Assembly: GCF_014490485.1 (NCBI RefSeq)
Contig: NZ_JACTVA010000021.1
Coordinates: forward strand, 1-64,000
Direction: 5' to 3'
Length of the DNA: 64,000 nucleotides
Source: Teichococcus aerophilus
Lineage (GTDB): Bacteria; Pseudomonadota; Alphaproteobacteria; Acetobacterales; Acetobacteraceae
Shown here: piece after piece, positions 15,325 to 64,000 of the stretch
Layout: each line of letters opens with the position of its first letter
Position numbering within the stretch: position 1 is the first letter of the stretch
The notes under the pieces: model-generated
The model's database searches: none
What the model was told of the DNA's origin: nothing
What the model saw: only the letters and a program-made list of their open reading frames with translations
Translations under genes and position numbers: made by a program

Positions 15325-15355
15325 ATTTTTTCGCAAGACTTTTCATTTTTCGCCC
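15325..15355. promoter_or_regulatory. TTTTTCGCA motif pair upstream of minC
   Basis: TTTTTTCGCA at 15325-15334 and TTTTTCGCCC at 15346-15355 are two direct copies, about 21 bases apart, of the motif found at flagellar operon boundaries. They lie between the stop of the gene at 15370 and the minC start. Confidence 0.5.
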
Positions 15356-15369
15356 AACAAACGGATCGC

Positions 15370-16062
15370 TCAGGCGGCACGGAGGGTGAGCGGCGGCGCG
15401 GCGGTCCCCAGCCCGTCCAGTTGCCACAACGCCCGCGCCATCCACAGCCGGAACATGCCCTGCCGCTCGCCGAACGGCCCATCCAGCCGCGCCTGCGCCA
15501 CGGGCAGGCAGCGCCCTTCCACCTGCGCCAGGGCAGCCCGCCGCAGCGCGGCACGCAGGATTCCGGGCGCTTCCCCCCAACCGGGAAGCCCGGCGGCGGC
15601 GGCGAAGGATTCCAGGCTGCAACGGGGCGCCAACGGCGGCTCGGCCGCGCCCTCCGGCAACGGTCGCAGCCGGGTGCCGTCCCACACCAGAAGCTGCAGG
15701 TCATGGCGCGGCGCGCCGGCCGGCACGACGAAGCCCGGCACCTCACCGGCTTCCAGCCGCAGGATGCTACCGAGCCAGCTCAGCCCCGCGGCCAGCAGCA
15801 CTGGGCATGGCGGCAGGCTGCTGGAGACCAGCAGGCGCACCGCGCCATCCTCCTGCACGATGCGGGCGCCGCTGGTCGCGTGGTCCAGGCTCTCCCCGGT
15901 CAGCAGCTGTGTCGCCTCGGGGTGACGGAACAGCGCGTGGTCCGGCGTCCGGCGCGGCGCCCTGCCAGACAGCAGGGCGACCAGCGCTTCGGCATCCTCC
16001 AGCGGCAAGGGATGGCGCAGCGTCGCGGCCAGCTCCAGCCGGGCATCCCGGCGGCGGATCAT
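15370..16062 (-). CDS. Hypothetical protein, second gene of an unknown pair
   Basis: A 230-residue protein with no recognised domain. It is leucine/alanine rich, without a signal peptide or membrane segment. Its start overlaps the previous gene's stop by 4 bases (ATGA), so the two are translationally coupled. The pair lies between the min and chemotaxis/flagellar genes, and the TTTTTCGCAT motif is upstream of the pair, which hints at co-regulation with flagella. Function unknown. Confidence 0.7.
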   Translation of the reverse strand: MIRRRDARLELAATLRHPLPLEDAEALVALLSGRAPRRTPDHALFRHPEATQLLTGESLDHATSGARIVQEDGAVRLLVSSSLPPCPVLLAAGLSWLGSILRLEAGEVPGFVVPAGAPRHDLQLLVWDGTRLRPLPEGAAEPPLAPRCSLESFAAAAGLPGWGEAPGILRAALRRAALAQVEGRCLPVAQARLDGPFGERQGMFRLWMARALWQLDGLGTAAPPLTLRAA

Positions 16063-16418
16063 GCCGCGCCCCGCCCGGCCAGGCGCAGCCGGCGCTCGGC
16101 GGCGGCCAGCGCGGCATCCACCGCAGCCGGGTCCGCCGCCACCTGCTGGCGTTGCAGGCTCAGCGGCGGCTCGTCATGCGGGTCATCCTCGATCAGCACG
16201 GCCTGCAGCGGCCGGTCGGCCCGCAGTTCGGCGAACAATCCTTCCCTGTAGTGCACGACCACGCGTGGCAGATGGCCGGCCGGGCTCAGCAGCCCCTCCA
16301 GCGCGTCCAGCGCCTGCTCGAATTCCTCCTCGCTGGCTTCGGCCTGCACGAGGTCGAGGATGTCACGGCCATCGAGGACAAGGCAGGCCTCCCCGGGGGC
16401 ACGACGGCTGATCTCCAT
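16059..16418 (-). CDS. Hypothetical acidic protein, first gene of an unknown pair
   Basis: A 119-residue protein from ATG 16418, which has AGGAGA eight bases upstream; longer starts to 16535 cross the regulatory gap and are rejected. The sequence is acidic and helical (DLVQAEASEEEFEQALDALE) with a C-terminal alanine-rich helix. No family is recognised. Coupled by ATGA overlap to the gene ending at 15370. Confidence 0.68.
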   Translation of the reverse strand: MEISRRAPGEACLVLDGRDILDLVQAEASEEEFEQALDALEGLLSPAGHLPRVVVHYREGLFAELRADRPLQAVLIEDDPHDEPPLSLQRQQVAADPAAVDAALAAAERRLRLAGRGAA

Positions 16419-16485
16419 CCGGCTTCTCCTGATCTGGTTCCAACCGCTGCCGGTGGTGCCACGCTCAGGCCAGGGCACACAATAG

Positions 16486-16497
16486 TTTTTCGCATAA
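16486..16497 (+). promoter_or_regulatory. TTTTTCGCAT motif between divergent unknown genes
   Basis: TTTTTCGCATAA lies 68 bases upstream of the minus-strand gene (start 16418) and 73 bases upstream of the plus-strand gene (start 16570). A weaker TTTTCGTG follows about 20 bases on. It is one of nine exact copies of the 10-mer in the window. Confidence 0.6.
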
Positions 16498-16569
16498 GTA
16501 TGCTCTCGTTTTCGTGATTGACGCCGCCGCGCCACGGTTCGATACGGCAGGAACGCTGGAGGCCCCCGT

Positions 16570-17823
16570 ATGCCGCACTTGCCCCATCAGGACGGACCGC
16601 TGGCCCGGGTTGCCAGCTACGACCTGGCTTCTCCCGCCGGGCTCGCGCTGCTGCGGCGCTTTGACGCCCAGTTCCATCGTTTGCCCGTAGCGGCACGGGA
16701 CGCGGCGGTGCGCGGCCTGCAACTGGCCCTGCCGCTGGCGGCCCGGGCCCAGGGACTGCTGGTGTTGCCGGGCGGCGCCCTGGCATGGCGGGACGGCGAA
16801 TCGGTGCTGGTCGGAGACCCCGCATCAAGTGTCGGCGTCACGACGAGCCGGGAGGCCTTGCAGAAGGCCGTATCCGACCAGTCCGGCACATTCTTCATCC
16901 AGCATGGCAAGAATGGCCTTCAATTGGGTCACGATTCGGTATTTTTCGGCCAATCCGCCACCTGGGCCCCTCAAGCGTCCCTTTACGCCGACATCTTGCC
17001 CGCACTGGCCGAGTGGCGGGGCCCGGCGATGATTCACTGGCACGACACCGGCGCCGCGGTGTGGGAAATGGTGCCCGCCCCGCCGCCGCTGGCCCTGGCC
17101 GTCAGCCTGGTGGGCGAGGCGCTGGAAGCCGGGCCGCCGCTACCGCGCTTCGTCTGGTCGGTCGCCGGCAGCGACGAGTGCTTCCAGCACCTCTCCTCCG
17201 GCCTTGCTGCGCATCTGGACGAATGGCTGGCACCCGAAGTCAGCGATGCATTGCGCTTCGCCCTGATCGCCCATTGGACCGATGGCGAGGACAGTGTCGC
17301 CAGCCGGTTGGCCGATGGCCTCGGCTGGCTGCCGCGCGCCTTCGCCGCCGACCCCGGCCGCCCCGCCAGCCTGGACATGCTCACCCACTGGCCCCGCGCC
17401 GCCGCCGCCTTGCCGCCGCACGCCGCCCTGCTCGGGCTCGCCGTCGCCGAGGCGGGCGAGGCCTGGAGCCCGCAGCTGCGGCGCGACTTCCTCGCCGCCC
17501 TCCGCGCTGAATGGCCCGCCGCCGCCCTTCTGGCCGAATCAGGCAGCGCGGCCCCGACGCCGCTGGATACGCTGGCGGCCGATCGCATGGTCCGCGCCGG
17601 CACCCCTGCCCTGGCGGCGCTAGCCCCCCTCGATGTCATCGACACGCCCCAGGGATTGTTGCGCCGGGCCGACTCCGTGGCGCTGCGCCTGGGCGCCCCC
17701 GTGTTGCTGGCGGTGCCGGCCTGGGGTCTGTGCCACCAGCTGGACCCGGCCGGGCTGCGTGTGCTGGGCAATGGCGCCGCCTACGGGCTTGGCGCCGGGC
17801 TGGAGGCGTTCGAGGCCGAATAG
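16570..17823 (+). CDS. Hypothetical protein carrying an internal iteron
   Basis: A 417-residue cytoplasmic-looking protein of unknown function. It has no recognised motif, signal peptide or membrane span. The N-terminal 80 residues are alanine/leucine-rich helices; the middle (HGKNGLQLGHDSVFFGQSAT) has lower GC. Codons 88-93 lie on a perfect inverted copy of the origin iteron. It is divergent from the 16059-16418 pair and ends upstream of cheY. Confidence 0.72.
   Translation: MPHLPHQDGPLARVASYDLASPAGLALLRRFDAQFHRLPVAARDAAVRGLQLALPLAARAQGLLVLPGGALAWRDGESVLVGDPASSVGVTTSREALQKAVSDQSGTFFIQHGKNGLQLGHDSVFFGQSATWAPQASLYADILPALAEWRGPAMIHWHDTGAAVWEMVPAPPPLALAVSLVGEALEAGPPLPRFVWSVAGSDECFQHLSSGLAAHLDEWLAPEVSDALRFALIAHWTDGEDSVASRLADGLGWLPRAFAADPGRPASLDMLTHWPRAAAALPPHAALLGLAVAEAGEAWSPQLRRDFLAALRAEWPAAALLAESGSAAPTPLDTLAADRMVRAGTPALAALAPLDVIDTPQGLLRRADSVALRLGAPVLLAVPAWGLCHQLDPAGLRVLGNGAAYGLGAGLEAFEAE
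16830..16847 (-). repeat. Perfect oriV iteron copy inside a coding sequence
   Basis: On the minus strand this is CTCGTCGTGACGCCGACA, 18 of 18 identical to the iterons at 7089 and 7184. It lies 9.5 kb from the origin and in inverted orientation, inside the gene 16570-17823, where it encodes S-V-G-V-T-T-S. An exact 18-mer match is not expected by chance in 64 kb. Confidence 0.8.
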
Positions 17824-17837
17824 CTGCCATTCATTAA

Positions 17838-17872
17838 TTTTCGCATGAGGCTCAGGAAGCGCTTGCGAAAAA
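17838..17872. promoter_or_regulatory. Inverted TTTTCGCA dyad upstream of cheY
   Basis: TTTTCGCA (17838-17845) and TGCGAAAA (17864-17871) form an 8-bp inverted pair with an 18-base spacer, ending 51 bases before the chosen cheY start. It is the same motif as at the other flagellar boundaries, arranged as a dyad. Confidence 0.6.
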
Positions 17873-17922
17873 AAACGGGATCGGGAATGTTGGCCACGCC
17901 CGCATCAGAAGGGGACCGTGGC

Positions 17923-18285
17923 GTGAAGATTTTGGTGGTGGATGACTACCCGACGATGCGTCGGATCGTGCGAAACCTGTTGGACCAGATTGGCTTCAAG
18001 GATGTCGAGGAGGCCGGCAACGGCGCCGAGGCGTTCGAGAAGATCAAGGTGTCTCGCTACGATATGGTGATCTCGGACTGGAACATGGAGCCCATGACGG
18101 GGCTTGAGCTGCTGAAGCATGTCCGTGCCGATGCCGCGCTGTCGAAGACGCCGTTCATTATGGTGACGGCGGAAAGCAAGACGGAGAACGTCATCGCGGC
18201 CAAGCAGGCCGGCGCCTCGCAGTACATCGTCAAGCCGTTCACGGCTGAGACGCTGAAGGCGAAAATCGCCTCTGTCGTGGGCTGA
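17923..18285 (+). CDS. cheY: Chemotaxis response regulator CheY
   Basis: A 120-residue single receiver domain that, when phosphorylated, binds FliM and changes motor output. Key residues from the GTG start are the acidic pair D7-D8, phospho-acceptor D52 in [13 protein letters not shown]82 in MVTAES and K104 in YIVKPF. GTG 17923 gives [14 protein letters not shown], the family's usual start; ATG 17887 would add 12 residues. Followed by cheZ after 12 bases. No cheA, cheW or receptor is in the window, so the kinase must be encoded elsewhere. Confidence 0.92.
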
Positions 18286-18297
18286 GAGGGGCGCGCG

Positions 18298-18930: not shown

Positions 18931-18989
18931 GACCATGCCCGCCGCCGATCCCGGCGGCGGCCTTGCATCACGAAGCCAGGAAGAATGTC

Positions 18990-26889: not shown

Positions 26890-27293
26890 CAGCGGCTACT
26901 CACGGCGCTGCGCATCAGGGCCGCGCTGCGCTTGTAGACGAGCGCCGCGAGATCGTAATTTTTCGCAACGTCGGATTGCTTCACCATCTGCTCCTCCAGG
27001 TCCACCGTATTGCCGGTGGGGTCCTCGCTATAGGAATTGGCACGGTCGGTCGTGACGTCCGCGCCGCCCCGGCTGCCGGTGATGTGCCCGGACTGGGCGC
27101 CGGCCAGCCGCAGCGGCGCCACGCCGCCCTGGGTCCGCAGCAAGGCGCTGTCGAACTGGAAGGGCTTCACGTCCCTGGCACGGTAATGCGGCGTGTCCGC
27201 ATTGGCGATGTTCTGCGCCAGCACGTTCTGGCGCTCGGAGAGCTGGCGCATGCGGGCGCCGGTGATGCGGAAGACGTCGATGCCGTCGAGCAT
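26889..27293 (-). CDS. flgB: Flagellar basal-body rod protein FlgB
   Basis: A 134-residue proximal rod protein. LSERQNVLAQNIANADTPHY is the conserved N-terminal rod motif and TVDLEEQMVKQSDVAKNYDL the C-terminal one. First gene of the export-gate operon. A TTTTTCGCA copy lies inside its coding sequence at 26959-26967, besides the two copies upstream. Confidence 0.95.
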   Translation of the reverse strand: MLDGIDVFRITGARMRQLSERQNVLAQNIANADTPHYRARDVKPFQFDSALLRTQGGVAPLRLAGAQSGHITGSRGGADVTTDRANSYSEDPTGNTVDLEEQMVKQSDVAKNYDLAALVYKRSAALMRSAVSSR

Positions 27294-27332: not shown

Positions 27333-27367
27333 TTTTTCGCATTCTGCCTGTCGAGTGTTTTTCGCAT
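27333..27367. promoter_or_regulatory. Two direct TTTTTCGCAT motifs between flgB and fliI
   Basis: Exact TTTTTCGCAT copies at 27333-27342 and 27358-27367, 25 bases apart, lie in the 134-base gap between two divergent flagellar operons. The best-placed pair for controlling both. Confidence 0.7.
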
Positions 27368-33291: not shown

Positions 33292-35289
33292 TTATTTTTC
33301 GCAAGCGCTGCGTGTGCCGAAGCGAAGTTTTTTCGCATGATTCTGCAGCCGGGGTGCCACGCGCGCCGAAAATTCCCGCCAGGATTCGCCGCGCCGCTGA
33401 CGCGACAGGTGCAGGCTGGGGTACCAGGGCGAATCCGCGCGCCCCACCATCCAGCGCCATTCCGCGACGGCTGGCAGCATCACATGGCACGCCACGCCCA
33501 GGGCCCCGGCGAAGTGCACGGTGGAATTATCGATGCTGACAACACAGTCCATGCAGGCGACCTGCGCCAGCGCATCCTCGGCGCTGCTCAATGCATCCAC
33601 CTGCGGGTCGACCAGCAGGGGGAGGCCGGCCGCTTCCGCGGCGATCTGCGCCGCGTCGCCATATTGCAGGCTTACGAAGCGGAAGCGCTGGTCCGCCAGC
33701 AGGGGCATCGCGTCCGCCAGCGTCATGGAGCGCGGGGTGGCCGATGCGGCGTTCAGGCTCCGCCAAGCCAAGCCCACCAGGGGGCGGCCATCGTCGTAAC
33801 GCTGGCGCAGCGCCGCGCGGAGCTGCGCATCCGCGCGCAGATAAGGTTGCGTGGCCTGGGCGAAGGCGGCTTCGTCCCGCCTCAGCAGGCGCGGCAGGTC
33901 GCCCATCGGGATCTGCGCCCGCAGGTCACCCAGCGGGGCGCCGGAAGCGTGGAAGGCGAGCGTGGGGAATGCGCGCGCGAAGACGCTGCGCAGCCGGGGG
34001 TCGCAGAGCAGACTGAGCCGGTGCCCGGCCGCCAGCAACTCCGGCAGCAGGCTGGCGAACATGATTTCGTCGCCGATGCCCTGCTCCCGCCAGATCAGGA
34101 TGCGGCCTTCCGGCAAGGGCTGGCCGTCCCATAGGGGCAGGCCTTCATCGTAGAGCTGGTCCTCAGGCCGCCAGCGGCCGCTGGTGAGGTCCCAGCCCGC
34201 GCCCAGCCGGCCCAGCATCAGCCGTTGCCGCGCGCAGCCGATCCGCGCCGCTTCGTCCTCCGGTGCCACGGCGACGGCGCGCTCATAGCAATCGAGCGCC
34301 CGTTCCGGCATCCCGGTCGCCGTCAGCAGGTTGCCGAGCTGCGTCAGGGCCTGTGCCTCCTCCGGCGCCAGGGCGCAGGCGCGCAGTGCGGCGGCCTCGG
34401 CCTCTTCGAAATGGTGCCGCTCGCCCGCCAGGCGTGCCAGGTGGTACTGCGCTTCCCATCCGTCGGGCCGCAGGTGGGCGGCAAGTGTGAAAGCGTCATG
34501 AGCCTCCTCCAGCAGGCCTTGCGCCTGCCGGGCCAGGCCCAGGCCCAGCCATGCCTCCGCCTTGTCGGCGGCGGCGCCGGTGGCCACCGAGAACGCCTCG
34601 CCGGCGCCCCGCCAATCCTCCATCCGGATCAGGCAATGGCCGAGATGCAGCGCGCTTTCGATCTGGAACCCGCCCAGTCCCAGCGCCGCCCGGAATGCCG
34701 CGATGGCGTCCGGCCAGCGCCGCAACTGCTCCAGCGCCAGGCCCAGATTATGCAGGGATTTGGGCTGCCCGGGCTCGCGCTCCAGCCCGGTCCGCAGGGC
34801 CTCGACCGCCTCCCCCGGCCGCCCGGCGGCGATCAGCGCGGCGCCGAGATTGTGCCAGCTGCCACCATGCGTGGGCCTCAGGCGCAACGCGGCGCGGAAG
34901 GCCAGGATGGCCTCCTCCGGCCGCCGCATCTGCGCCAGCAGGTTGCCGGTATTGAAATGCGTCTCCGGCGCCTCCGGCTCGCTGGCCAGGGCCCGCCGGT
35001 AGGCGGCCAGCGCCTCTTCCAGCTTGCCCTCGGCCCGCAAGGCCATGCCCAGGTTGCGGCAGTATTCCGCAGCGGGGTGCAGCGCCACCGCGCGCCGCAG
35101 CGCGGCGGTTGCGGCGGCGTGGTCGTGCCGCTGGTAGCAGCACAGGCCAAATAGGTTATGCGTGGCGCTATCCCGTGGCCGTTGCCGCAACGCCGCGCGG
35201 TAAAGCCGTTCCGCCGCCGCCAGGTCGCCGGCCCGGTGGTGTCGGAGGGCGGTCTCCAGCGGCGAGGAAATCGTGGCGTCCTGCCGCAT
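33292..35289 (-). CDS. TPR-repeat glycosyltransferase, probable flagellin modification enzyme
   Basis: A 665-residue protein. Residues about 10-340 are a run of tetratricopeptide repeats (about nine; for example AEYCRNLGMALRAEGKLEEA and ETHFNTGNLLAQMRRPEEAI). The C-terminal 300 residues resemble the TPR-linked GT9/GT41-like glycosyltransferases: ILIWREQGIGDEIMFASLLP, VGLAWRSLNA, FVSLQYGD and VVSIDNSTVHFAGALGVACH. Such proteins add sugars to flagellin in several bacteria; position next to fliC supports that. Its last codons overlap a TTTTTCGCA motif. 3 bases after flgN. Confidence 0.8.
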   Translation of the reverse strand: MRQDATISSPLETALRHHRAGDLAAAERLYRAALRQRPRDSATHNLFGLCCYQRHDHAAATAALRRAVALHPAAEYCRNLGMALRAEGKLEEALAAYRRALASEPEAPETHFNTGNLLAQMRRPEEAILAFRAALRLRPTHGGSWHNLGAALIAAGRPGEAVEALRTGLEREPGQPKSLHNLGLALEQLRRWPDAIAAFRAALGLGGFQIESALHLGHCLIRMEDWRGAGEAFSVATGAAADKAEAWLGLGLARQAQGLLEEAHDAFTLAAHLRPDGWEAQYHLARLAGERHHFEEAEAAALRACALAPEEAQALTQLGNLLTATGMPERALDCYERAVAVAPEDEAARIGCARQRLMLGRLGAGWDLTSGRWRPEDQLYDEGLPLWDGQPLPEGRILIWREQGIGDEIMFASLLPELLAAGHRLSLLCDPRLRSVFARAFPTLAFHASGAPLGDLRAQIPMGDLPRLLRRDEAAFAQATQPYLRADAQLRAALRQRYDDGRPLVGLAWRSLNAASATPRSMTLADAMPLLADQRFRFVSLQYGDAAQIAAEAAGLPLLVDPQVDALSSAEDALAQVACMDCVVSIDNSTVHFAGALGVACHVMLPAVAEWRWMVGRADSPWYPSLHLSRQRRGESWREFSARVAPRLQNHAKKLRFGTRSACEK
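33295..33338. promoter_or_regulatory. TTTTTCGCA motif pair upstream of fliC
   Basis: TTTTTCGCA at 33295-33303 and exact TTTTTCGCAT at 33329-33338, 34 bases apart, 115-158 bases before the fliC start. Both fall in the last codons of the upstream glycosyltransferase gene, showing that the motif is kept even where it constrains protein sequence. Confidence 0.6.
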
Positions 35290-35960: not shown

Positions 35961-36029
35961 CGGGGGTCCTCCAAAAAAATGTGCGCCGGGGCGCCGACAC
36001 GGCCCGCATCTTAGCGAGCTGTCAGGAAA

Positions 36030-36040
36030 TTTTCGCATAA
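36030..36040 (+). promoter_or_regulatory. TTTTCGCAT motif between flgJ and a putative regulator
   Basis: TTTTCGCATAA in the 182-base gap between the divergent flgJ operon and the gene at 36143. One of the flagellar-boundary motif copies, a T short of the exact 10-mer. Confidence 0.5.
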
Positions 36041-36142: not shown

Positions 36143-36619
36143 ATGGGCGAGGCAAACGGCGAGATGTGGAACGACGACATCGACGATATGGAGGAGGCGG
36201 ACCACGCCCCGGGCCGCCGCCGGCAGCAGGTCCGGCGCCGTGCTCTGGCGGCGGAGCTGCGCGGCGAATTCGATGCGCGCCTGCTGGCCGGGGAGGACAT
36301 CCTGACCCTCTCCCGCGCCTTCGACATCGAACCCTGGTACGCGCAGCGCCGTGCCAAGCGGGTACTGAGCCGTGCCAGCCAGGACCGGCAGATGTCCCCG
36401 TTCCTCTCCCCGCTGTCGGAGATGGAGGAGGACATGACGCCGTTGCAGTATGCCTGCGGCCTGCTGGGGCCGCGGGTGCGGCCGCTGCGGAACGGCTACT
36501 ACGTCCTGGATGGTCACGAGGCCGGGCCGAAGGAAGTCACCCGCGCCGCCAACCGCGTTCTGCGGGAGCGCGGCCAGAGTGAGATCCCCTATCCGGGCCT
36601 GAACCCGCTGTATCGCTGA
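36143..36619 (+). CDS. Uncharacterised protein with HTH-like region in flagellar cluster
   Basis: A 158-residue protein with a very acidic start (residues 8-22), then a basic stretch RRRQQVRRR. Next comes a segment, GEDILTLSRAFDIEPWYAQR then RAKRVLSRA, that has the spacing of a helix-turn-helix. The C-terminal half (MTPLQYACGLLGPRVRPLRN) is compact and tyrosine/proline rich. No family is recognised. It is a candidate DNA-binding flagellar regulator, by inference only. Confidence 0.65.
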   Translation: MGEANGEMWNDDIDDMEEADHAPGRRRQQVRRRALAAELRGEFDARLLAGEDILTLSRAFDIEPWYAQRRAKRVLSRASQDRQMSPFLSPLSEMEEDMTPLQYACGLLGPRVRPLRNGYYVLDGHEAGPKEVTRAANRVLRERGQSEIPYPGLNPLYR

Positions 36620-38662: not shown

Positions 38663-38980
38663 TCAGACGAGCGCGGGCTCGGCCTGCGCGGGCGCCGGCG
38701 GGCCATAAACGGTGGCCGGGCTGGGCCACGCATTGCCCTGCCGCAGCAGCGGCGCGAACTCTTCCGGCAGCCGCGCCTCGATGGCGACGGCGGCGCTGTC
38801 GATCTCGACACTGCCGCTGGCCTGCAGGCGGGTTTCCAGTTCCACGCTGCGGGCCGAGGGGTCGGCCAGGCGCAGCGTCTCCCGCACCTGCGCCAGGGCG
38901 GCGCTGCGCAGGGCTTCCAGCACCTCGGCGCGGCTGAGGCGGATGGTGTGGCTGATGAAGAAGGGGGAAGGACGGGTCAT
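38663..38980 (-). CDS. Hypothetical protein
   Basis: A 105-residue protein from ATG 38980, MTRPSPFFISHTIRLSRAEV, with alternating helix and strand character and a Pro/Ala-rich tail. No family is recognised. The longer frame to 39592 crosses the divergent promoter region and is rejected. It lies 111 bases upstream of the integrase-like gene on the same strand. Confidence 0.58.
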   Translation of the reverse strand: MTRPSPFFISHTIRLSRAEVLEALRSAALAQVRETLRLADPSARSVELETRLQASGSVEIDSAAVAIEARLPEEFAPLLRQGNAWPSPATVYGPPAPAQAEPALV

Positions 38981-39362
38981 GAGGCTTCTCCTGATGCCTG
39001 GTCGGTTTTCGCGGAGCCGCCCGCGAGGCGCGGCCTGCCGGATTTGGCGGCACCGCCTTCCTAGCATCGTTTCGCAGAAACTGCCATATTTCGCTTCGAG
39101 ACAATGATGAACCCATTCCGACTTTCTGCGGCGCCCTGGGCTGCCCCTGACCTCGCCCGGCCGCCGCGCTGCCGGCAAGGCGTGCGCGGCCCCGTGCGGA
39201 AAACTTTCGCGAAGGGCCGGAGTTGGGTCGGGATGTCGTCGATTTTTGCGTCTATGCGGAAAAGCGAAAAAAGGGTAAACGAACGCCACGCCCCCGGATG
39301 CACGATGTCGGTGGGCGATTCGAGGCCCGGTCACCGGGCCGGACGATGGGAGAAGGCATTCG
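38981..39362. promoter_or_regulatory. Divergent promoter region with TTTCGC motifs
   Basis: A 382-base gap between the minus-strand gene starting at 38980 and the plus-strand ParB-like gene. It holds TTTCGCA near 39070, ATTTCGC near 39088 and GCGAAAAAA near 39264, all related to the flagellar-boundary motif, with AT-rich patches near 39240-39280. No small gene is convincing here. Confidence 0.4.
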
Positions 39363-41147
39363 ATGGCACGCGCGAAAGCAGCCGCCGCCCCGGCGGGCCG
39401 CAAGACAAGCGGCAAGGCCCCGGCAACGCCGGGCCTCTCGCAAGGATTGCTGCAAGGCGGCCGGATCGTGCAGATCCAGGGCGGCGACCCTGACGTGCCC
39501 GCCTTCTCGATCGAATTGGTGACGCCGGAGAGCGCGACCGAGCTGCTGCAGCGCAAGCGCCCCAGCGCCGCCGAGAACCCCGCCGCCATCAACGCCTATG
39601 CCGAGGCGATGCGCGAAGGCCGCTGGGTTCTCAACGGCATGCCGCTGATCCTCTCCCGCGCCGGCGTGTTGCTGGATGGCGTGCAGCGGCTGCGTGCCTG
39701 CATCAAGGCCGGCGTGCCGTTCCTTACCGTGCTGGCGCAGAACATCCCGGACGACGTGCTGCACACGATCGACCAGCAGCGCCGCCGCTCCTTCGCCGGT
39801 GTGCTGGAAACGCGGGGCATCCCGCACGCCCATGCCTTGCAGTCGGCCCTGGTCAAGCTGATTCGCTACGACGACGGCAAGATGTTGCGCGGTGCCGGCA
39901 CTGCTTCCTGGTCCCGCATGGACCGAGTGCTGCGCGCCAACCCGGACCTGGAGCTGGCGGTGAAGATGTCGCTGGAAAGCGATGCCAGCGTGTTGTCGGA
40001 AGCCGTGCGGACGCCACTGTTGTTCATGGGCTTCCGGGTCGACAAGGCCGCGACCCGCCGCTTCCTGGACGCCGTAGCGAACCCCGAGAAATACACCCCG
40101 ATGGAGCCGGGCGCGCGGGTGCGCGACCTGATCGACATCACCCGCGGCGACCCGACGACGCGGTTGAAGCCGGTCACGCTCTTCGCCGTCTGCATCAAGG
40201 CCCTGAACGCGACCTTCAGCGGCGAGCACCTGCGCAGCTACGCCTGGCTGGACAAGAGCGTGAACCCGACCAAGGGCGAGGACTTCCCCGCCCTCGACGG
40301 CTATGGCGGGCTGAACGACCCCGGCCATGCGGACGAGACGGAAGAGACCGCCCACCAGCTGCGCGAGGCGGTGGAGCGGCTGGCCGCCGAGGAAGGCGTC
40401 TACCCTCTGGCCATCGAGACGGTGACGCCGGAGATGGCGGAGGACTACCTCACCCACAACACGCGCAACCGTAAGATCGTCGCCGCGCATGTGGATGCCA
40501 TTGCCCGCGACATCCGTGCCGGCAACTGGATGATGAACGCGCAGCCCATCTGCTTCGCTCGCGACGGCCGGCTGCTCAACGGCCAGCACCGGCTCTCTGC
40601 CGTGCTGCAGGCCGGCGAGGCGATCGAGGTGCCGGTGATGCGCGGCCTGCCGGAGGAGGCCTATGCCACCTACGACATCCACGCCAAGAAGGGCCCGCAG
40701 CTGGGCGCCGCGCTGGACAATTTCGGCGACAAGCCGCTGGTGGCCGCCGCCGCCGTCCTCCTCTGGAAGCGCGAACTGAAGCCCAGCGGCATCCGCAACG
40801 CCAAGCCCACCCCTTCCGAAGTGATGAAGATCGTCGAGCAGCACCCGCGCCTGCTGGAACTGCGGACCTTCGGCCGCAAGATGATCGAGTTCGGCCGTGG
40901 TTCCGTCCTGACCTATGCCGCCTATTGCATCGAGCGCGACGATCCCGAACTCGGCCGCGTGTTCCTGGAGCGCTTCGAAACCGGCGCCGACCTGCCGCGC
41001 GGCCACCTGATCCTGGAACTGCGCAAGCGCATGCAGATCATGCGGCGCGAACGCACCAGCCAGGATGAGCAACTCAAGGAGCTGCTTGCCGCCTGGGAGC
41101 GCTTCAAGGAAAAGCCCGATCTGGAACGGCTGGCCCGCGCGTCTTGA
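39363..41147 (+). CDS. ParB-like domain protein with internal tandem duplication
   Basis: A 594-residue protein built from two copies of a ParB/Srx-like module seen in phage and plasmid proteins of unknown role. Copy 1 has VTPE at 53, LLDGVQR at 103-109 and IPDD near 128. Copy 2 has VTPE at 354, LLNGQHR at 404-410 and LPEE near 429. The offset is 301 residues at every landmark, so this is a fused tandem duplication. Copy 2 keeps the D/N-G-Q-H-R core; copy 1 has G-V-Q-R, losing the histidine. GAGAAGG precedes the ATG. It ends at repeat copy B. A plasmid maintenance or nucleic-acid function is possible but unproven. Confidence 0.7.
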   Translation: MARAKAAAAPAGRKTSGKAPATPGLSQGLLQGGRIVQIQGGDPDVPAFSIELVTPESATELLQRKRPSAAENPAAINAYAEAMREGRWVLNGMPLILSRAGVLLDGVQRLRACIKAGVPFLTVLAQNIPDDVLHTIDQQRRRSFAGVLETRGIPHAHALQSALVKLIRYDDGKMLRGAGTASWSRMDRVLRANPDLELAVKMSLESDASVLSEAVRTPLLFMGFRVDKAATRRFLDAVANPEKYTPMEPGARVRDLIDITRGDPTTRLKPVTLFAVCIKALNATFSGEHLRSYAWLDKSVNPTKGEDFPALDGYGGLNDPGHADETEETAHQLREAVERLAAEEGVYPLAIETVTPEMAEDYLTHNTRNRKIVAAHVDAIARDIRAGNWMMNAQPICFARDGRLLNGQHRLSAVLQAGEAIEVPVMRGLPEEAYATYDIHAKKGPQLGAALDNFGDKPLVAAAAVLLWKRELKPSGIRNAKPTPSEVMKIVEQHPRLLELRTFGRKMIEFGRGSVLTYAAYCIERDDPELGRVFLERFETGADLPRGHLILELRKRMQIMRRERTSQDEQLKELLAAWERFKEKPDLERLARAS

Positions 41148-41488: not shown

Positions 41489-41902
41489 TCAAGCGTGCTG
41501 GCGTGGCCGGCGAAGCTCGGTGTCCTCGGCTTCCTGCTCCTTCCTCCGTTGCACTTTGCGCTTTGCCGTGGCTTCGGCGGCCTCCAGGGCGATTTCCAGG
41601 CGCTTGATCTCGGCGAAATTTTCTCGCAGCGCGTCCCGCGCCACGGCTTCCTGCTGCTGCAATTGGCCGGCGGCCCAGGCGAGTTGACGGCGTTGACGGG
41701 TGTGGATGTGGGCCCAGGTGGTCCAGAGCGCCATGTCTTCGGCCTGGCCGCGGGCGTGCTCGGTTTCCTGCCGGGCCTTGGCGTCGTGCTTGGCCAGGGC
41801 TTCGGCGCCAAGCAGGGTCTGACGCTCGGCTTCCGCCAGCGCGACGCGCTTGTCGTCGGCCTGGCGGCGGGAAAGGCGGATCAGGGTGGCAAGGCCGCGC
41901 AT
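41489..41902 (-). CDS. fliJ: Flagellar export chaperone FliJ
   Basis: A 137-residue coiled-coil protein. LATLIRLSRRQADDKRVALA at the start is the FliJ N-terminal pattern, followed by continuous charged heptads to the C-terminus (RLEIALEAAEATAKRKVQRR). It is the central stalk of the FliH-FliI-FliJ ATPase. It stands alone rather than after fliI. Confidence 0.75.
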   Translation of the reverse strand: MRGLATLIRLSRRQADDKRVALAEAERQTLLGAEALAKHDAKARQETEHARGQAEDMALWTTWAHIHTRQRRQLAWAAGQLQQQEAVARDALRENFAEIKRLEIALEAAEATAKRKVQRRKEQEAEDTELRRPRQHA

Positions 41903-41959: not shown

Positions 41960-41971
41960 TTTTTCGCATAA
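41960..41971 (+). promoter_or_regulatory. TTTTTCGCAT motif between fliJ and the protease gene
   Basis: Exact TTTTTCGCATAA in the 84-base gap between divergent fliJ (start 41902) and the protease gene (start 41987). Only 15 bases before the latter's ATG, so binding there would block its translation-start region. Confidence 0.6.
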
Positions 41972-41986: not shown

Positions 41987-42805
41987 ATGCAGCGATGGAT
42001 GCGGGGCCTGCTGGCGGCCGGGGTGGTGATGATCGGGGTAGGTGCCGCGGCATCCGCCTGGCCGTCGCGGCCGGCGCCCGCTTCGGTCATGCAGGGGGTG
42101 TCTGGCACAGCGTTCGGCGTGGCGCCCGGGGTGTTGGTGACGAATGCGCATGTGGCGCTGCGGTGCCAGGCGCAGGGGCGGGCGCTGCATCTCATGGGCC
42201 ATGGTGGCGGCTGGGCGGTGCTTTTGCTGGACGCGGATGCCGACCTGGCCTTGCTGCGTGGGCCGGTGACGGGCGAAGCGGTGCTGCCGCTCTCCACCGC
42301 CGCGCGGCTGCCACGGGGCGCGCCGGTGCTGGCGATGGGCTACCCAACGGAAGGTGTGGACAGCCGCGCCGCCGGCTTGCTGCGCAGCGCGCGCGGCGAT
42401 GTGCTGCGCGCCACCCTGACGGTGCATGACCCGGAGGGCGGCCGTGCCGCCAGCTTCGTCATGACCGACCGGCAGGGGCGTGAGGTCGAGCCCGGCTGGG
42501 AGGATGGCCTGCGCTATTTTGGTGCCGACAAGGCGGCGCGGCTGCGCTGGCGGGTGGAGATCGGTGCGCCGGCCGGTGGCGGCAGCTCCGGCGGGCCGGT
42601 GCTGGATGCGGCGGGGCATGTGGTCGGGGTGGTCTATGCCGGCGGGCGCGGGCTGACGGCGGCGATACCGCTGGAGGATCTGCGCGGCCTGCTGGCCCGT
42701 GCCGGTATCGTGCCGGTGTTACGCGCCGCCTCGCTACGCCTGGACCCGGATTGGGCTGGCGTGGAGGCTGATGCGGCGCGGGCTTTGTACCGGATTACCT
42801 GCTGA
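41987..42805 (+). CDS. Secreted trypsin-like serine protease
   Basis: A 272-residue protease with an N-terminal signal or anchor (residues 8-24) and a chymotrypsin fold. Catalytic residues read as H55 (VLVTNAHVAL), D86 (DADADLALL) and S201 (GGGSSGGPV). There is no PDZ domain, so it is not a standard DegP/HtrA. Periplasmic, substrate unknown. Its placement in the flagellar island and the motif upstream suggest co-regulation with flagella. Confidence 0.83.
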   Translation: MQRWMRGLLAAGVVMIGVGAAASAWPSRPAPASVMQGVSGTAFGVAPGVLVTNAHVALRCQAQGRALHLMGHGGGWAVLLLDADADLALLRGPVTGEAVLPLSTAARLPRGAPVLAMGYPTEGVDSRAAGLLRSARGDVLRATLTVHDPEGGRAASFVMTDRQGREVEPGWEDGLRYFGADKAARLRWRVEIGAPAGGGSSGGPVLDAAGHVVGVVYAGGRGLTAAIPLEDLRGLLARAGIVPVLRAASLRLDPDWAGVEADAARALYRITC

Positions 42806-51145: not shown

Positions 51146-51157
51146 TTTTTCGCATTC
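51146..51157 (+). promoter_or_regulatory. TTTTTCGCAT motif upstream of motB
   Basis: Exact TTTTTCGCAT in the 58-base gap between the preceding gene and motB, touching the stop codon of the former. It suggests that motB has its own control even though it follows the fliF operon. Confidence 0.55.
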
Positions 51158-56592: not shown

Positions 56593-56624
56593 CGATACCT
56601 GTCGTCCCGTTCTGGCCGTCGATA

Positions 56625-56658
56625 TTTCGCATAAGCGTTTTTGGCGTGGCATGCGAAA
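56625..56658. promoter_or_regulatory. Inverted TTTCGCAT pair between fliF and fliL
   Basis: TTTCGCAT (56625-56632) and ATGCGAAA (56651-56658) form an 8-bp inverted pair with an 18-base spacer, the same geometry as upstream of cheY. The gap separates the divergent fliF and fliL operons. GCGAAAAATCGCAT follows at about 56697. Confidence 0.6.
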
Positions 56659-57243: not shown

Positions 57244-57246
57244 GCG

Positions 57247-60171: not shown

Positions 60172-60834
60172 TCAGCGCGGTTCGGCCGGGATGGCGTCGC
60201 TGCGGCAGAGCAGGCGCTCAGCGCGCTCGGGTGCCACGGCGAGGTAGCCATGGGCCACCTGTAGCGCGTAGCCGCCTTCGGCCAGGGCGGTCAGGAAATC
60301 CCCACCCTGGCGGGAGAAGCCGGTGATGGGGAAGGCCAGGTCGCAGTCCAGCAGGCCGGCTTCGCCGGCGCTGGTGGCCATGCCGGGCAGCAGGCCGCGT
60401 GCCAGCAGCAGCATGGCATCCATGGAGGCAGCGGTGGCGATGGGCCGCGGCGTCATGACCAGCCCGGCGGGTTGGATGCAGAGCTGCCAGGGCAGGTCGC
60501 TCTGCGGCGTGTGGCGGATGGAGATCTGCCAGCCATCGCGTCGGGCCTGCCATTCGCCGAGACCGGCGAGTTGGAAGGAGAGGAGCTGGTCGTTCATGGC
60601 GGCGGGTGGCACCGGCAGGGTGATGGCCAGGCGCAGGTTCCGCAGCCGGGAGGCGAGGCGGCGATCCCGCCGGTGATGCCACCAGCCGGCGACACCGGCC
60701 ACCGCCAGCGGTATCAGGCCGAGGGCGGTGGGGGTTTGCCCGGGCAGCCCGGCCAGGATGGCGCCGGCGCCGGCGGTGCCGAGCAGGGCGGCGGAGGTCA
60801 GGATGCTGGGGCCGTATTGGCGCCGTTGCGGCAT
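60172..60834 (-). CDS. Hypothetical inner-membrane protein
   Basis: A 220-residue protein with two hydrophobic segments near residues 12-30 and 35-50 (ILTSAALLGTAGAGAILAGL, LGLIPLAVAGVAGWW), then a soluble domain with several tryptophans (GLGEWQARRDGWQISIRHTP). No family is recognised. The ATG at 60834 excludes an upstream extension through the motif dyad. Confidence 0.65.
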   Translation of the reverse strand: MPQRRQYGPSILTSAALLGTAGAGAILAGLPGQTPTALGLIPLAVAGVAGWWHHRRDRRLASRLRNLRLAITLPVPPAAMNDQLLSFQLAGLGEWQARRDGWQISIRHTPQSDLPWQLCIQPAGLVMTPRPIATAASMDAMLLLARGLLPGMATSAGEAGLLDCDLAFPITGFSRQGGDFLTALAEGGYALQVAHGYLAVAPERAERLLCRSDAIPAEPR

Positions 60835-60889
60835 GGGAGTGCTCCGCGAGAGGGTTTTTCCGGAACTCACTCTCGGCGCAAATTGCAAA

Positions 60890-60931
60890 TTTTTCGCAAA
60901 GGAATGGAGGTCTGGAAAATTATGCGAAAAA
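60890..60931. promoter_or_regulatory. Inverted TTTTTCGCA dyad upstream of 60995 gene
   Basis: TTTTTCGCA (60890-60898) and TGCGAAAAA (60923-60931) are perfect 9-bp inverted copies, the latter part of an exact reverse-strand TTTTTCGCAT. They lie in the 160-base gap between divergent genes starting at 60834 and 60995. Confidence 0.6.
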
Positions 60932-60994
60932 TGGTTTGACGAGAGATGTGCGAATTGCGACGAAGAGTCGTACCCCCATGCTAGCGAGGCCACC

Positions 60995-61297
60995 ATGACC
61001 CCCACCCTGCCCGCCCCCGACCTGACCCTGTGGGGCGAAGCCGTGATGGCCAAGGCGGCCTCGCTCGGCCGCCGTGATGGCCTGGCGGGCCAGCCGCGCG
61101 ACTTCACCCTGGAAGATATCGGTGGCGAGGTGGGGATCGTCGAGACCATGCGGCAGGACCGCATCGGCGGTACGCTGCCGCTGCCGCAGTCCCGCCTGCT
61201 GCTGGCGGCGGTGAAGCAGTGCTACGTGGCCGGTTACCACCACGGCGGCGACGTGCGGCGGGAGAAGCAGCGCCGTTTCCCCGCTTCTCCCGCTTGA
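60995..61297 (+). CDS. Hypothetical protein
   Basis: A 100-residue cytoplasmic protein from ATG 60995, no recognised domain. The core LTLWGEAVMAKAASLGRRDG ... LLLAAVKQCYVAGYHHGGDV looks helical and metal-friendly (two histidines, one cysteine) but no motif is certain. It faces the lytic transglycosylase gene and is preceded by the motif dyad. Confidence 0.58.
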   Translation: MTPTLPAPDLTLWGEAVMAKAASLGRRDGLAGQPRDFTLEDIGGEVGIVETMRQDRIGGTLPLPQSRLLLAAVKQCYVAGYHHGGDVRREKQRRFPASPA

Positions 61298-61304
61298 TCC
61301 GACG

Positions 61305-62318
61305 TCAGATCGTGCCGCCGGCATAGGCGCGCCGGGCCTCGCTCACGCTGGCCGGCACGCCTTCCTGCCGCATGGCGCCGAGCAGGGCGGCGGGCAGTTC
61401 GGTCCGCTCGCCCGCCGCGCCGATTTCCTGCGCCGCCTGCCCCCGTCCCATGCGGTTGAACACCTCTACGAGTGCGGAGGTCATCATGCGCTCCGGCGCC
61501 TGGGCGACCCGGCTCGGCGAGCCGCTGCCCCACCAGAACGGCTCCGCGCTGGCGATGGCGGTGCCGGGCGCGGCGTTGGTGGCGACGGCATCGAAATCCA
61601 CCGGGCCGACCGGTGCCGCCAGGCCGAGCTGCGCATAGACCCGGCCGACCTTGCCACGGATATTGTCCAGAAACTGGCTGGCGGAAAGCGGCGCGCCGTC
61701 GCTGCCGCGGAACAGGTTGGCATTGGCGCGCGCGGCTTCCGGCAACAGGTCAGAGGCCGCCCGATTCGGCGCATCGGCTACCGCGCGCAGCAGCTTGCCG
61801 GCGCCGTTGGTGCCGAGGAAATGGCCGAGATACAACTCGCCGACATCCGGCCGCCGGCCCAGCGCCGGTGCCAGTGCATCCGACACATCCTTGAGATGCT
61901 CGGCGCCCAGGCGGGCGGAGATTTCCGGGTTGTCGCGCAGGGCGAGGATGCGGCTGCGCTCCGCCGCATCGGCGACCGTCAGGCGGCCGCTGGGGCTGCG
62001 GGTGATGAGGCTGGCTTCGTTGGCCAGGCCGTGGTCCGCGCCGTGCTGGCGCACCGTATCCAGCCAGGTCTGGTCGATGAACTGGAACAGGCCGCGCGCG
62101 GAGGAGGTCGGCGCCTGGGCATTGGCCTGGAAGCCGCTTTCGATGGCCGCCTTGGCGGCGAGCACGCCGAAGCCGACGCCCGTGCTCTCCGCCGCGCTGC
62201 GCAGCGCGCGCGTGACGTTGCTGGAGACATTGTAGCGGCCGAGGGTTTCCGTCTGCGCCGCGCCATCCTGGGCGGCGCGGGGGCGAAGCAGGTCCGGCAA
62301 GGCGACCGGGTTGGGCAT
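61305..62318 (-). CDS. Lytic transglycosylase (SLT-like), probable flagellar
   Basis: A 337-residue protein with a goose-lysozyme/SLT-like domain in residues about 30-180: catalytic-type glutamate in LAAKAAIESGFQANAQ and the ARGLFQFIDQTW motif (family G-L-M/F-Q). No signal peptide is obvious, so it may be secreted through the flagellar export system, as FlgJ or SltF are. It probably clears peptidoglycan for the rod because FlgJ here lacks its hydrolase half. ATG 62318 is preferred to 62390, which crosses the motif upstream. Confidence 0.78.
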   Translation of the reverse strand: MPNPVALPDLLRPRAAQDGAAQTETLGRYNVSSNVTRALRSAAESTGVGFGVLAAKAAIESGFQANAQAPTSSARGLFQFIDQTWLDTVRQHGADHGLANEASLITRSPSGRLTVADAAERSRILALRDNPEISARLGAEHLKDVSDALAPALGRRPDVGELYLGHFLGTNGAGKLLRAVADAPNRAASDLLPEAARANANLFRGSDGAPLSASQFLDNIRGKVGRVYAQLGLAAPVGPVDFDAVATNAAPGTAIASAEPFWWGSGSPSRVAQAPERMMTSALVEVFNRMGRGQAAQEIGAAGERTELPAALLGAMRQEGVPASVSEARRAYAGGTI

Positions 62319-62337
62319 GGTGGGGGTCTCCGCGGTT

Positions 62338-62372
62338 ATGCGAAAAATCGTGTAGCACGACGCGATGCGAAA
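62338..62372. promoter_or_regulatory. Paired ATGCGAAA motifs between transglycosylase and motA
   Basis: Exact reverse-strand TTTTTCGCAT (ATGCGAAAAA, 62338-62347) and ATGCGAAAT (62365-62373) are direct copies 27 bases apart in the 122-base gap between the divergent genes. Confidence 0.6.
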
Positions 62373-62440
62373 TGATATGAGCGAACGCATCGGCCCCCTC
62401 CGGTCCGAGCAGCATCGCCACAGTCAGGGCCCCTTCATCG

Positions 62441-63334
62441 ATGATCCAGATCGCCGGCATAATCGGAGTCTTCGTCGCCATCTTCGGCGGCTACCTCATC
62501 GCGGGCGGCCATCTGGCCGTGATCATCCACGCCGTCGGGCCGGAGATGATCATCATCGGCGGGTCGGGCGTCATGACCATGCTGATCTCCAGCGACGGCG
62601 CCGGCATGATGAAGGTGGGCAAGTCGCTCGGCCAGGTCTTCAAAGGCTCGCGCTGGAAGAAGGCCGATTACAGCGACATGCTGAGCCTGCTCTATCTGCT
62701 GCTGCGCACGCATCAGAAGGAAGGCGCGGCGAAGCTGGAGAAGCATATCGAGAAGCCGGACAGCTCGCCGATCTTCTCCCGCTATCCGCGCATCGCGCGG
62801 GACGCGGCGGTCAGTGGCCTGATCTGCGACACGATGCGCACCATCACGCTGAACAACAAGGACCCGCACCTGGTCGGCGAGATGATGGAGGCCACGATCG
62901 AGAAGCGCGCGGCCGAGGACATCAAGCCGGCCAAGGCATTGCAGACGGTGGCGGATGCGTTTCCGGCGCTCGGCATCGTCGCCGCGGTGCTTGGCATCAT
63001 CAAGGCGCTGGGGGCGATTTCGGAAAGTCCTGAGGTATTGGGCCGTATGATCGGTTCGGCGCTGGTCGGGACCTTCCTGGGCGTGTTCCTCTCCTACGGC
63101 CTGGTAGGGCCGATGGCGGCGCGGTTGAAGAGCATCTTCGAGGAAGAGCGCCGCATGTTGGATGTCGCCCGTGCCGTCATCACCAGCTACCTGCAGAACC
63201 TGTCGCCGCAGATCTGCGTCGAGGTGGGGCGGCAGTCGGTGCCGACGAAGTTGCAGCCCAGCTTCGACCAGATGGAGGAGCAACTGCGAGAGGCCGGCCG
63301 GATGAAGTCCGATGCCGAGGGTGGCGGGGAGTGA
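62441..63334 (+). CDS. motA: Flagellar stator protein MotA
   Basis: A 297-residue stator subunit with four membrane helices: MIQIAGIIGVFVAIFGGYLI, a second at about 25-45, then VADAFPALGIVAAVLGIIKA and IGSALVGTFLGVFLSYGLVG near 165-215. The cytoplasmic loop carries the charged residues that meet FliG. Its length and GGHLAVIIHAVGPEMIIIGG block are of the proton-driven type. motB is encoded elsewhere in the island. Stop overlaps the next ATG. Confidence 0.95.
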   Translation: MIQIAGIIGVFVAIFGGYLIAGGHLAVIIHAVGPEMIIIGGSGVMTMLISSDGAGMMKVGKSLGQVFKGSRWKKADYSDMLSLLYLLLRTHQKEGAAKLEKHIEKPDSSPIFSRYPRIARDAAVSGLICDTMRTITLNNKDPHLVGEMMEATIEKRAAEDIKPAKALQTVADAFPALGIVAAVLGIIKALGAISESPEVLGRMIGSALVGTFLGVFLSYGLVGPMAARLKSIFEEERRMLDVARAVITSYLQNLSPQICVEVGRQSVPTKLQPSFDQMEEQLREAGRMKSDAEGGGE

Positions 63335-64000
63335 TGCCGATGCGCCGCAGCCTGCTGCTGGCCAGCGTGGCCCTGTGGCCTTTGCTGGCATACCCAGCCG
63401 CCGCCCAGGCGACGGCGCCCGAGGGCACGGCGGTTCGCGTCCGCACCGGCCAGCATGCCGACAAGGGACGGGTGGTTCTGCATCTGGGTTCGCTGCCGGC
63501 CTACACGATGCGAAAAATATCCAATGGCTACGAGCTGCGCCTTCGCGGGCAGTTCCCGCTGGACCTTTCGACGACGCGTCGGCTGAGCGAGCTGGCCGGG
63601 ATCGAGAGCCGGCAGGAGAACGGCGAGACCGTGGTGGTGCTGCGGACCGAGGGCGAGCAGAACGCGGAAGCGGGCGCCTTCGACGGCATGTTGTATGTGG
63701 ATCTGCGCCCGGCGCAGCCGCCGCGCACGCCGGCGACGCTGGAGGCGGCGCAGCGCCGCCTGTTGGATGACGCGGTGCGCCTGGGATTGATGAAGCCCGA
63801 GCAGGCATCCGCGATGTTGCAGGCGGCCCGGCCCGGCCAGCCGGCGGCACGGGCGGCTGCCGCGGCACCTGCCGTGGCGAGCGTGCCCGCACTGGTGGCG
63901 CCTGCCACGGATGCGCAGGCTATGGCAGCCCAGCCGGTCTCACGTGTGCCGGTTTCCCCCGGCTCCCAGCCTCTCGCTCCCGCCACTGCGGCGCCTGTGG
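63334..64000 (+). CDS. Secreted protein downstream of motA (partial, 3' end outside window)
   Basis: The first 222 codons of a gene whose ATG overlaps the motA stop (TGATG); ATG 63340 is the alternative. A signal peptide (LLLASVALWPLLAYPAAAQA) is followed by a beta-rich domain (TAVRVRTGQHADKGRVVLHL) and then an Ala/Pro-rich linker at the window edge. Large TPR or LysM-like proteins often follow motA in Rhodospirillales, but the C-terminal part cannot be seen. An exact reverse TTTTTCGCAT lies inside it at 63508. Confidence 0.68.
   Translation, partial: MPMRRSLLLASVALWPLLAYPAAAQATAPEGTAVRVRTGQHADKGRVVLHLGSLPAYTMRKISNGYELRLRGQFPLDLSTTRRLSELAGIESRQENGETVVVLRTEGEQNAEAGAFDGMLYVDLRPAQPPRTPATLEAAQRRLLDDAVRLGLMKPEQASAMLQAARPGQPAARAAAAAPAVASVPALVAPATDAQAMAAQPVSRVPVSPGSQPLAPATAAPV

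Follow-up and report, generated by a model that had tools for sequence, protein, structure and literature searches.

A directional sequence word at the promoters of a plasmid-type flagellar island in Roseomonas-type Acetobacteraceae and its candidate readers

What controls the many operons of a flagellar gene cluster that sits on a plasmid-like replicon? We addressed this question for the first 64,000 nucleotides of contig NZ_JACTVA010000021.1 from Teichococcus aerophilus (GCF_014490485.1; this whole stretch is called the window hereafter), in which the short word WTGCGAAAAW, or YWTGCGAAAAW in a fuller form, recurs at the promoters of a flagellar island. The opposite strand reads TTTTTCGCAT, the exact 10-mer that an initial annotation had listed nine times and taken for the binding site of a regulator of the island. 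From comparative sequence analysis, the word is almost certainly a cis-regulatory element of a dedicated flagellar regulon. The more complete proposal, that it is an orientation-locked element of the island which is read by a regulator encoded there, preferably the ParB-like protein (39363-41147), would have a probability of roughly 0.47. What is new here is the fixed orientation of the word, its position in the promoter core, its restriction to a single mobile flagellar system, and the naming of two regulator candidates.

The word and the promoters it marks

The exact word TTTTTCGCAT is present in ten copies in the 5.66-Mb, 140-contig genome, nine of them inside the window, and the reversed word in none. 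The nine copies lie at the coordinates and on the strands reported in the initial annotation, and the rarity by chance estimated there is borne out by 100 dinucleotide shuffles of the window, which contained the exact word 0.02 times on average and once at the most. The fitted form WTGCGAAAAW has 19 copies in the genome, 17 of which fall in the window from 14653 onward, and its reversed control has three; such pattern counts over genomes are lower bounds for some of the genomes described below. The two copies outside the cluster (C48:41674 and C113:16033), for which no context of window genes was found, look like background because the reversed control reaches three copies. The word had been described as missing from the first 16 kb, which is correct for the exact 10-mer and incorrect for the fitted word, found at 14653 and 15327 upstream of minD and minC.

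To assess conservation, we mapped the orthologs of the island genes in the clusters of relatives and scanned 260 bp upstream of each for the 8-mer TGCGAAAA facing the gene. The counts by promoter omit orthologs with a match start after residue 45, an identity below 36% or a position at a contig edge. For 11 island promoters, which were chosen after the sites of the window had been seen, TGCGAAAA faces the gene in 121/126 orthologous upstream regions, a count that additionally omits N-rich regions, Belnapia and Rhodopila. Seven other island genes carry it in 9/85 upstream regions, and five control 8-mers give 9 matches in total over all 211 regions. Measured from the chosen starts and with extra copies excluded, the position of the word is nearly constant, lying at -48 to -58 for motB, at -20 to -25 for cheY, and at -65 to -79 for flgB.

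The 11 promoters are distributed over most of the window; strands of sites are given for the fitted word and fractions for orthologous upstream regions with TGCGAAAA. The site of minD (TTGCGAAAAT, 14653-14662, minus strand; 11/11) lies within the coding sequence of minC, which has a site of its own upstream (TTGCGAAAAA, 15327-15336, minus strand; 11/11). It is followed by the site upstream of 16059-16418 (minus strand), a gene divergent with 16570-17823 (plus strand), at 16486-16495 (ATGCGAAAAA, minus strand; 10/11), and by that of cheY at 17863-17872 (TTGCGAAAAA, plus strand; 12/12). The flgB promoter in the flgB/fliI gap carries ATGCGAAAAA at 27358-27367 (minus strand; 14/14, with 8-mer matches also in Belnapia and Rhodopila), and the flagellin gene has TTGCGAAAAA upstream at 33295-33304 (minus strand; 7/10). 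The gap between the flgJ-like gene (minus strand) and the gene 36143-36619 (plus strand), encoding a protein with a predicted helix-turn-helix (HTH), contains ATGCGAAAAT at 36029-36038 (minus strand; 9/10 for flgJ), and the gap between 41489-41902 (minus strand) and the protease gene 42089-42805 (plus strand) contains ATGCGAAAAA at 41960-41969 (minus strand; 12/12 for 41489-41902). The same form is found upstream of motB (51146-51155, minus strand; 13/13), of 60995-61297 (60922-60931, plus strand; 10/10), and of motA (62338-62347, plus strand; 12/12).

The window holds further copies. A second, inverted copy at the cheY promoter (ATGCGAAAAT, 17837-17846, minus strand) has a counterpart as an inverted pair only in G205 and G107. 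The flgB/fliI gap contains an extra copy of the window genome (ATGCGAAAAA, 27333-27342, minus strand), the second copy upstream of flagellin (ATGCGAAAAA, 33329-33338, minus strand) is found only in the window genome among those mapped, and TTGCGAAAAA at 60890-60899 (minus strand) shares the gap between 60172-60834 (minus strand) and 60995-61297 (plus strand) with the site at 60922. Pairing of sites, which the initial annotation had emphasised, is real in the window (17837/17863, 27333/27358, 33295/33329 and 60890/60922), but the first three pairs are mostly missing in relatives, and the 60890/60922 gap holds at least two copies in 6/10 mapped genomes with variable spacing; we rejected pairing as a defining feature since its conservation is mostly lacking. 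Another copy lies within flgB upstream of flgC (TTGCGAAAAA, 26959-26968, minus strand; three flgC-assigned sites in 13 segments). The copy at 63508-63517 (ATGCGAAAAA, plus strand), correctly located before and taken to mark an operon boundary, turned out to lie within the coding sequence after motA and is weakly conserved, with exact TGCGAAAA in 4/11 orthologs. The shorter forms reported earlier are indeed upstream of minC, cheY and flgJ; the fliF/fliL gap has only a one-mismatch copy (56623-56632, minus strand), and the bactofilin gene of the window genome has no exact 8-mer just upstream. Two overlapping degenerate copies with one mismatch each (39254-39271, minus strand) lie in the gap between 38663-38980 (minus strand) and the ParB-like gene (plus strand). 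In G200, G107, G162, G202, G211 and Belnapia, a second TGCGAAAA, pointing toward flgB, extends over the first codons of fliI.

Pooling of the sites gives the asymmetric consensus YTWTGCGAAAAWT, and the pooled profile contains no palindrome, no second half and no second block at a fixed distance. In 13 segments from 12 genomes, the span covered by mapped genes contains WTGCGAAAAW at 151 sites (whole segments hold 160) and the reversed word at none, and 130/151 sites are intergenic, though 65-86% of the stretch is coding. At sites with just one gene start inside 260 bp, the word points toward the gene 73 times and away from it five times; gene starts flank 57 sites on both sides, and 16 sites have none. 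This fixed orientation relative to transcription is absent from the initial annotation.

The word occupies the -35 region, or adjoins a TTGAC-like box upstream, facing the gene. At 6/10 promoters, a TATAAT-like hexamer scores best 18-24 nucleotides downstream, starting at 18 for motB, 20 for 41489-41902, 22 for minC and cheY, 23 for flagellin, and 24 for flgJ (the best for motA is at 33), and the upstream scan of the ten promoters gave nothing above 0.7. At flgB and 60995-61297, the word stands just upstream of a TTGAC/TCGAC-like element. Less easily reconciled with a promoter-core element, flgB, 16059-16418 and 60995-61297 lack a convincing -10-like hexamer (scores of 0.4 or less), and the spacing of 18-24 is loose, unlike that of a sigma -35 element or a class II activator. 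Contact with RNA polymerase is suggested because the word faces the gene in the -35 region, and simple occlusion is suggested because the spacing is loose. The word could equally be a simple operator or a directional promoter element that RNA polymerase reads together with a regulator, and activation is modestly favoured over repression.

The orientation lock and the downstream -10-like hexamers would also suit the -35 element of a dedicated sigma factor, particularly as the spacing becomes 17-19 at four promoters if the -35 element is equated with positions -1 to 4. The actual spacing of 18-24 and more and the missing second block at a fixed distance in the pooled profile argue against a sigma factor, which we consider very improbable; the island genes that were scanned or annotated include none by name, and no genome-wide sigma search was made. 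Among known flagellar control sites, the CtrA dyad has the consensus TTAA-N7-TTAA, sigma-54 recognises TGGCACG-N5-TTGCW, and sigma-28 (FliA) recognises TAAA-N15-GCCGATAA. With these general consensus sequences, we found two one-mismatch CtrA matches in the 64 kb (12655 and 43618), neither at a marked promoter, nine two-mismatch sigma-54 matches versus 13.4 expected, and no sigma-28 match at two mismatches. These three kinds of sites do not account for the word, as had been stated from the beginning.

Confinement to one flagellar system

The island is a flagellar cluster of Acetobacteraceae (Roseomonas/Pseudoroseomonas), placed in this family by the relatives of its FliI. Pfam matches identify fliI, flagellin, flaF, flbT, motA, motB, fliF, fliG, fliM and others, whereas flhA, fliR and flhB were assigned by synteny with an annotated relative; the window also encodes minC and a MinD-type ATPase. 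Replication initiator protein A (RepA, PF10134; 6010-6978, minus strand) marks the replicon as plasmid-like. The same cluster is plasmid-borne in two closed relatives, on p1318-2 of Roseomonas marmotae and pL11-D of Pseudoroseomonas cervicalis, and a Rhodovastum plasmid carries part of a more distant flagellar cluster. In G205, the cluster resides on a 3.78-Mb contig instead.

An orthologous FliI (at least 76% identity, with three partial matches) is encoded by 14/16 genus relatives, and all 14 hold 4-11 exact copies of the word. The two others are G016, which has no FliI and no exact copy, and G212, which has only a FliI of 59% identity and two exact copies; the reversed control gives 0-2 copies per genome in all 16. 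Four of the 14 (G204, G207, G208 and G210) have a second flagellar system with a FliI of 54-56% identity, and no exact copy was found on the contigs of these second systems (within 600 kb for G210), nor on that of the only system of G212. The two comparisons proposed with the initial annotation did not refute it: the word is not dense elsewhere, nor around the additional flagellar systems that some of these strains have, and close relatives do carry it ahead of their orthologous operons. Together with its near-absence where the cluster is missing, this confinement and the conservation among orthologs support the earlier proposal of a regulatory site dedicated to the flagellar island, to which a protein presumably binds.

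Beyond the genus, the contig that carries the cluster of Belnapia moabensis contains ten copies of WTGCGAAAAW, including two in the flgB-fliI region, and the arrangement in G245 and G305 is of like kind. Rhodopila globiformis has seven TGCGAAAA in 52.5 kb, compared with 0, 0 and 3 for the control words; five of the seven lie upstream of cheY (two), flagellin, flgB and the ortholog of 41489-41902, all facing the gene. In Rhodovastum, a single site in 60 kb (controls 2, 0 and 1) lies in the gap beside a ParB-like gene and faces the neighbouring gene. Outside the clusters, one chemoreceptor gene each in G208 and G204 has a facing site 140-230 bp upstream, and the site of a G206 chemoreceptor gene appears to coincide with the start codon. 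Most of the remaining extra-cluster copies have no evident context.

In G059 (L223-L246), from another Acetobacteraceae genus, the same 10-mer occurs 94 times. The 22 copies that we compared are all inside a dispersed repeat of about 105 bp with hairpin-like arms, some of them 104 bp apart, and this repeat is unrelated to the flagellar element. Could the word then be a by-product, arising from a dispersed repeat as in G059, from codon usage, as MRK codons yield occasional ATGCGAAAA, or from a general promoter feature of a GC-rich genome? The sites of the window have no repeated flanks, the copies in the mapped segments are largely intergenic (130/151), and only two copies lie elsewhere in the genome. 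The conservation at orthologous promoters relative to the control words contradicts such an origin, which is hardly credible.

Candidate proteins that may read the word

Our preferred candidate binder is the ParB-like protein of 594 residues encoded at 39363-41147 (plus strand). Its best family match is the phage family phrog_5931 (residues 350-583, E 2.7e-83), and the ParB-like fold is assigned by sequence only from the weaker match to phrog_1033 (residues 366-445, E 6.3e-7); the homolog of P. cervicalis is annotated as a member of the ParB/RepB/Spo0J family. Identity within the genus is 82-93%. In a survey that sampled 397 family genomes, the protein or a homolog (paralogs counted too) is encoded by 35, to which G305, Rhodopila and Rhodovastum belong; G201, G208 and G211 are not among the matches listed. 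The gene and the sites occur together in 12/15 genus genomes (the window genome counted) and in Belnapia, G245, G305 and Rhodopila.

The association of gene and word extends to homologs outside flagellar clusters. We classed 17 homologs as non-flagellar, with no match to the flagellar proteins of the window in flanks of about 2-20 kb. In five of them (G401, G377, G423, G005 and the second copy of G209), a facing TTGCGAAAA is located 490-765 bp upstream, at distances that depend on the chosen start codons. TGCGAAAAA and TTGCGAAAA are the sole 9-mers that reach five regions among the 14,010 9-mers of the 17 upstream regions, although the five TTGCGAAAA events are not all independent, because three of them come from one genus. 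In G212, which has no orthologous cluster, a ParB-like gene on a 3.3-kb contig has a facing site within about 110 bp upstream. We prefer the ParB-like protein because of its association with the sites, including those upstream of non-flagellar homologs and in G212.

Several observations weigh against this choice. In G207, both the sites and the HTH gene are present, but nothing closer to the ParB-like protein than a paralog of 45% identity was found in the assembly of about 600 contigs. The cluster pieces of G208 and G211 that we examined do not contain the ParB-like gene, with only pieces covered, and the gene of G210 is frame-shifted, whether truly or by sequencing error, with the sites kept. 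As for the protein itself, no HTH or recognised DNA-binding domain was detected in Pfam or NCBIfam, the AlphaFold model is poor (mean predicted local distance difference test, pLDDT, of 38.6), and a sequence search of solved structures revealed no relative in the PDB. The site is non-palindromic, unlike parS and virS. Among the non-flagellar homologs, 12/17 have no facing site within 900 bp, including all but one of the genus's paralogs of about 42-45% identity; 490-765 bp upstream is oddly distant for simple autoregulation; and the nearest site in G199 is 1.7 kb off with another gene intervening. The 8-mer TGCGAAAA is one of 27 8-mers found in at least five of the 17 regions, of which the commonest are GC-rich. 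Because of G207, we lowered our estimate for the ParB-like protein somewhat and raised those of its rivals slightly, so that on sequence evidence it is named as the binder tentatively, with the odds against it.

Some distant ParB-like homologs (L175, L190 and L184) combine the ParB-like part with GAF and HisKA_2 histidine kinase domains, with a weak GAF match only in L184. This fusion is an unusual sensor kinase architecture. By eye, an imperfect TTCAC...GTGAA dyad stands shortly upstream of TTGCGAAAA at most of the loci L176, L184, L185, L175 and L180, and is possibly the site of a second regulator.

The HTH protein (158 residues; 36143-36619, plus strand), which belongs to an island-associated family and to no Pfam or NCBIfam family, could be the reader as well. 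Its AlphaFold model contains a tri-helical HTH at residues 37-82 with a pLDDT of about 81-90, and its gene is probably autoregulated because it is divergent from flgJ across a conserved site. The protein is found in 12/14 cluster-bearing genus relatives, including G207, and of the two misses one coincides with an N gap and the other is in a genome that is 71% complete; the family is also present in Belnapia moabensis and G245, with two weak profile matches (20-22 bits) in G129 and G342. However, it was not found in the site-bearing G305 and Rhodopila (best E 0.27 and 0.44), the recognition helix is altered in G245 with the site unaltered, and an HTH reader leaves the sites upstream of non-flagellar ParB-like genes unexplained, so we regard it as rather unlikely. 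Its C-terminal domain is highly conserved without a Pfam, NCBIfam or convincing PHROGs match. Foldseek gave weak HTH- or homeodomain-like matches, none with E of 0.001 or below, and a sequence search of solved structures gave nothing useful. In G245:C555 (L149 and L152), a 950-bp segment with the HTH gene occurs twice at 99.9% identity, by duplication or by an assembly join.

A weaker candidate is the XRE-type HTH protein after minC-minD (13120-13335, minus strand; HTH_3, E 2.4e-9), whose gene is present in all 11 genus clusters with the min region covered and in P. cervicalis and is not in the G245 stretch. A gene with HTH_13/DUF1612 outside the window (79% identical in L081) was found in six genomes among the loci examined, and was set aside as probably not general because it is absent from the examined stretches of P. 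coralli, P. rhizosphaerae, G204 and P. cervicalis.

The reader may not be encoded on the island at all. An unlinked, family-wide regulator, of which the ParB-like gene would be an old target, accounts for the sites in genomes without 36143-36619, for those at non-flagellar ParB-like genes, and for those in G207, and the chemoreceptor genes of G208 and G204 with their extra-cluster sites in the same direction would fit as well. On the other hand, G016, without FliI and the ParB-like gene, has background counts only, and with 17/19 copies on the island the window genome would offer a global regulator hardly any further targets. Taken together, an unlinked regulator is conceivable but doubtful.

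Whichever protein is the reader, the regulon very probably consists of the promoters that belong to a single flagellar island, of plasmid or chromid type, in Roseomonas-type Acetobacteraceae, together with its min, cheY and stator genes. As the preferred island-encoded regulator, the ParB-like protein would read the word in the promoter core, at about the -35 place and with a -10-like hexamer downstream at 6/10 promoters, and may also control its own gene (39363-41147). The island might then be switched as one unit, independently of the other flagellar circuits of the host. In its boldest form, a tandem ParB-like protein related to phage proteins, some of whose relatives are fused to GAF-histidine kinases, would have become the master regulator of a mobile flagellar island, licensing RNA polymerase at every island promoter through a non-palindromic site in the -35 place, and the island would carry its own switch from host to host; we offer this as an unlikely scenario. 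We infer the binding, the identity of the binder and the sign of regulation.

Comparison with known regulators and neighbouring features

Dedicated flagellar regulators other than sigma factors are known in Alphaproteobacteria, such as VisNR/Rem and FtcR of Rhizobiales, and the control proposed here would resemble them in being dedicated and independent of sigma factors. The island genes scanned include no regulator of the LuxR or OmpR type, and no genome-wide search for these families was made. The fla2 system of Rhodobacter sphaeroides is described as one in which a single regulator, CtrA, serves many flagellar promoters in varied arrangements, including the divergent flgB-fliI and fliL-fliF gaps (PMC6180460), and the island is similar in this respect. 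Unlike the sites of CtrA regulons, the word lacks symmetry and is limited to a single island, and the CtrA dyad is absent from the marked promoters.

The closest functional analogy for 39363-41147 may be VirB of the Shigella virulence plasmid, a ParB-like activator of the plasmid's own secretion genes that works through a short DNA site; this site, virS, is described as a parS-like palindrome that can act from more than 1 kb (PMC10770331). Both would be ParB-like regulators of plasmids. In contrast to VirB, the site of the island lacks symmetry and lies in the promoter core, no HTH was detected in the protein, and no silencer was identified. The regulator is at best a putative member of the VirB type. 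Orphan proteins with the ParB-CTPase fold are reported to be numerous in a 2025 survey, with fusions to further domains and links to mobile elements (PMC12704722). The proteins described here share with them a ParB-like domain outside parAB and, in some homologs, the fusion to GAF and HisKA_2 domains; they differ in context, as a word search of the main text of that survey returned no "flagell-", GAF or histidine kinase (PMC12704722). Among the papers listed in our literature searches, none is on flagellar control in this group, and among the matches listed for literature printing the word none is on flagella, judging from titles and the beginnings of abstracts.

The word provides a map of the putative regulon, with at least 11 promoters in the genus and parts of it in Belnapia, g24 and Rhodopila, and it predicts which genes would be switched jointly, among them minC/minD and a gene next to the protease gene with no known flagellar role. 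Should the ParB-like protein prove to read the word, it would join VirB as a protein of the partition type that has come to switch a secretion machine encoded on a plasmid.

Two neighbouring regions deserve mention. The genes minC and minD, a MinE-sized gene and the gene of the XRE regulator (13120-15224) separate the plasmid replication gene from the flagellar genes, and co-control of the Min system with the flagella is suggested because minC and minD bear the flagellar word. On the R. marmotae plasmid (L249:12234-12318), two more TGCGAAAA stand upstream of a pair of genes near the flagellar genes, encoding a GNAT acetyltransferase and a methyltransferase, which perhaps act in flagellin modification.

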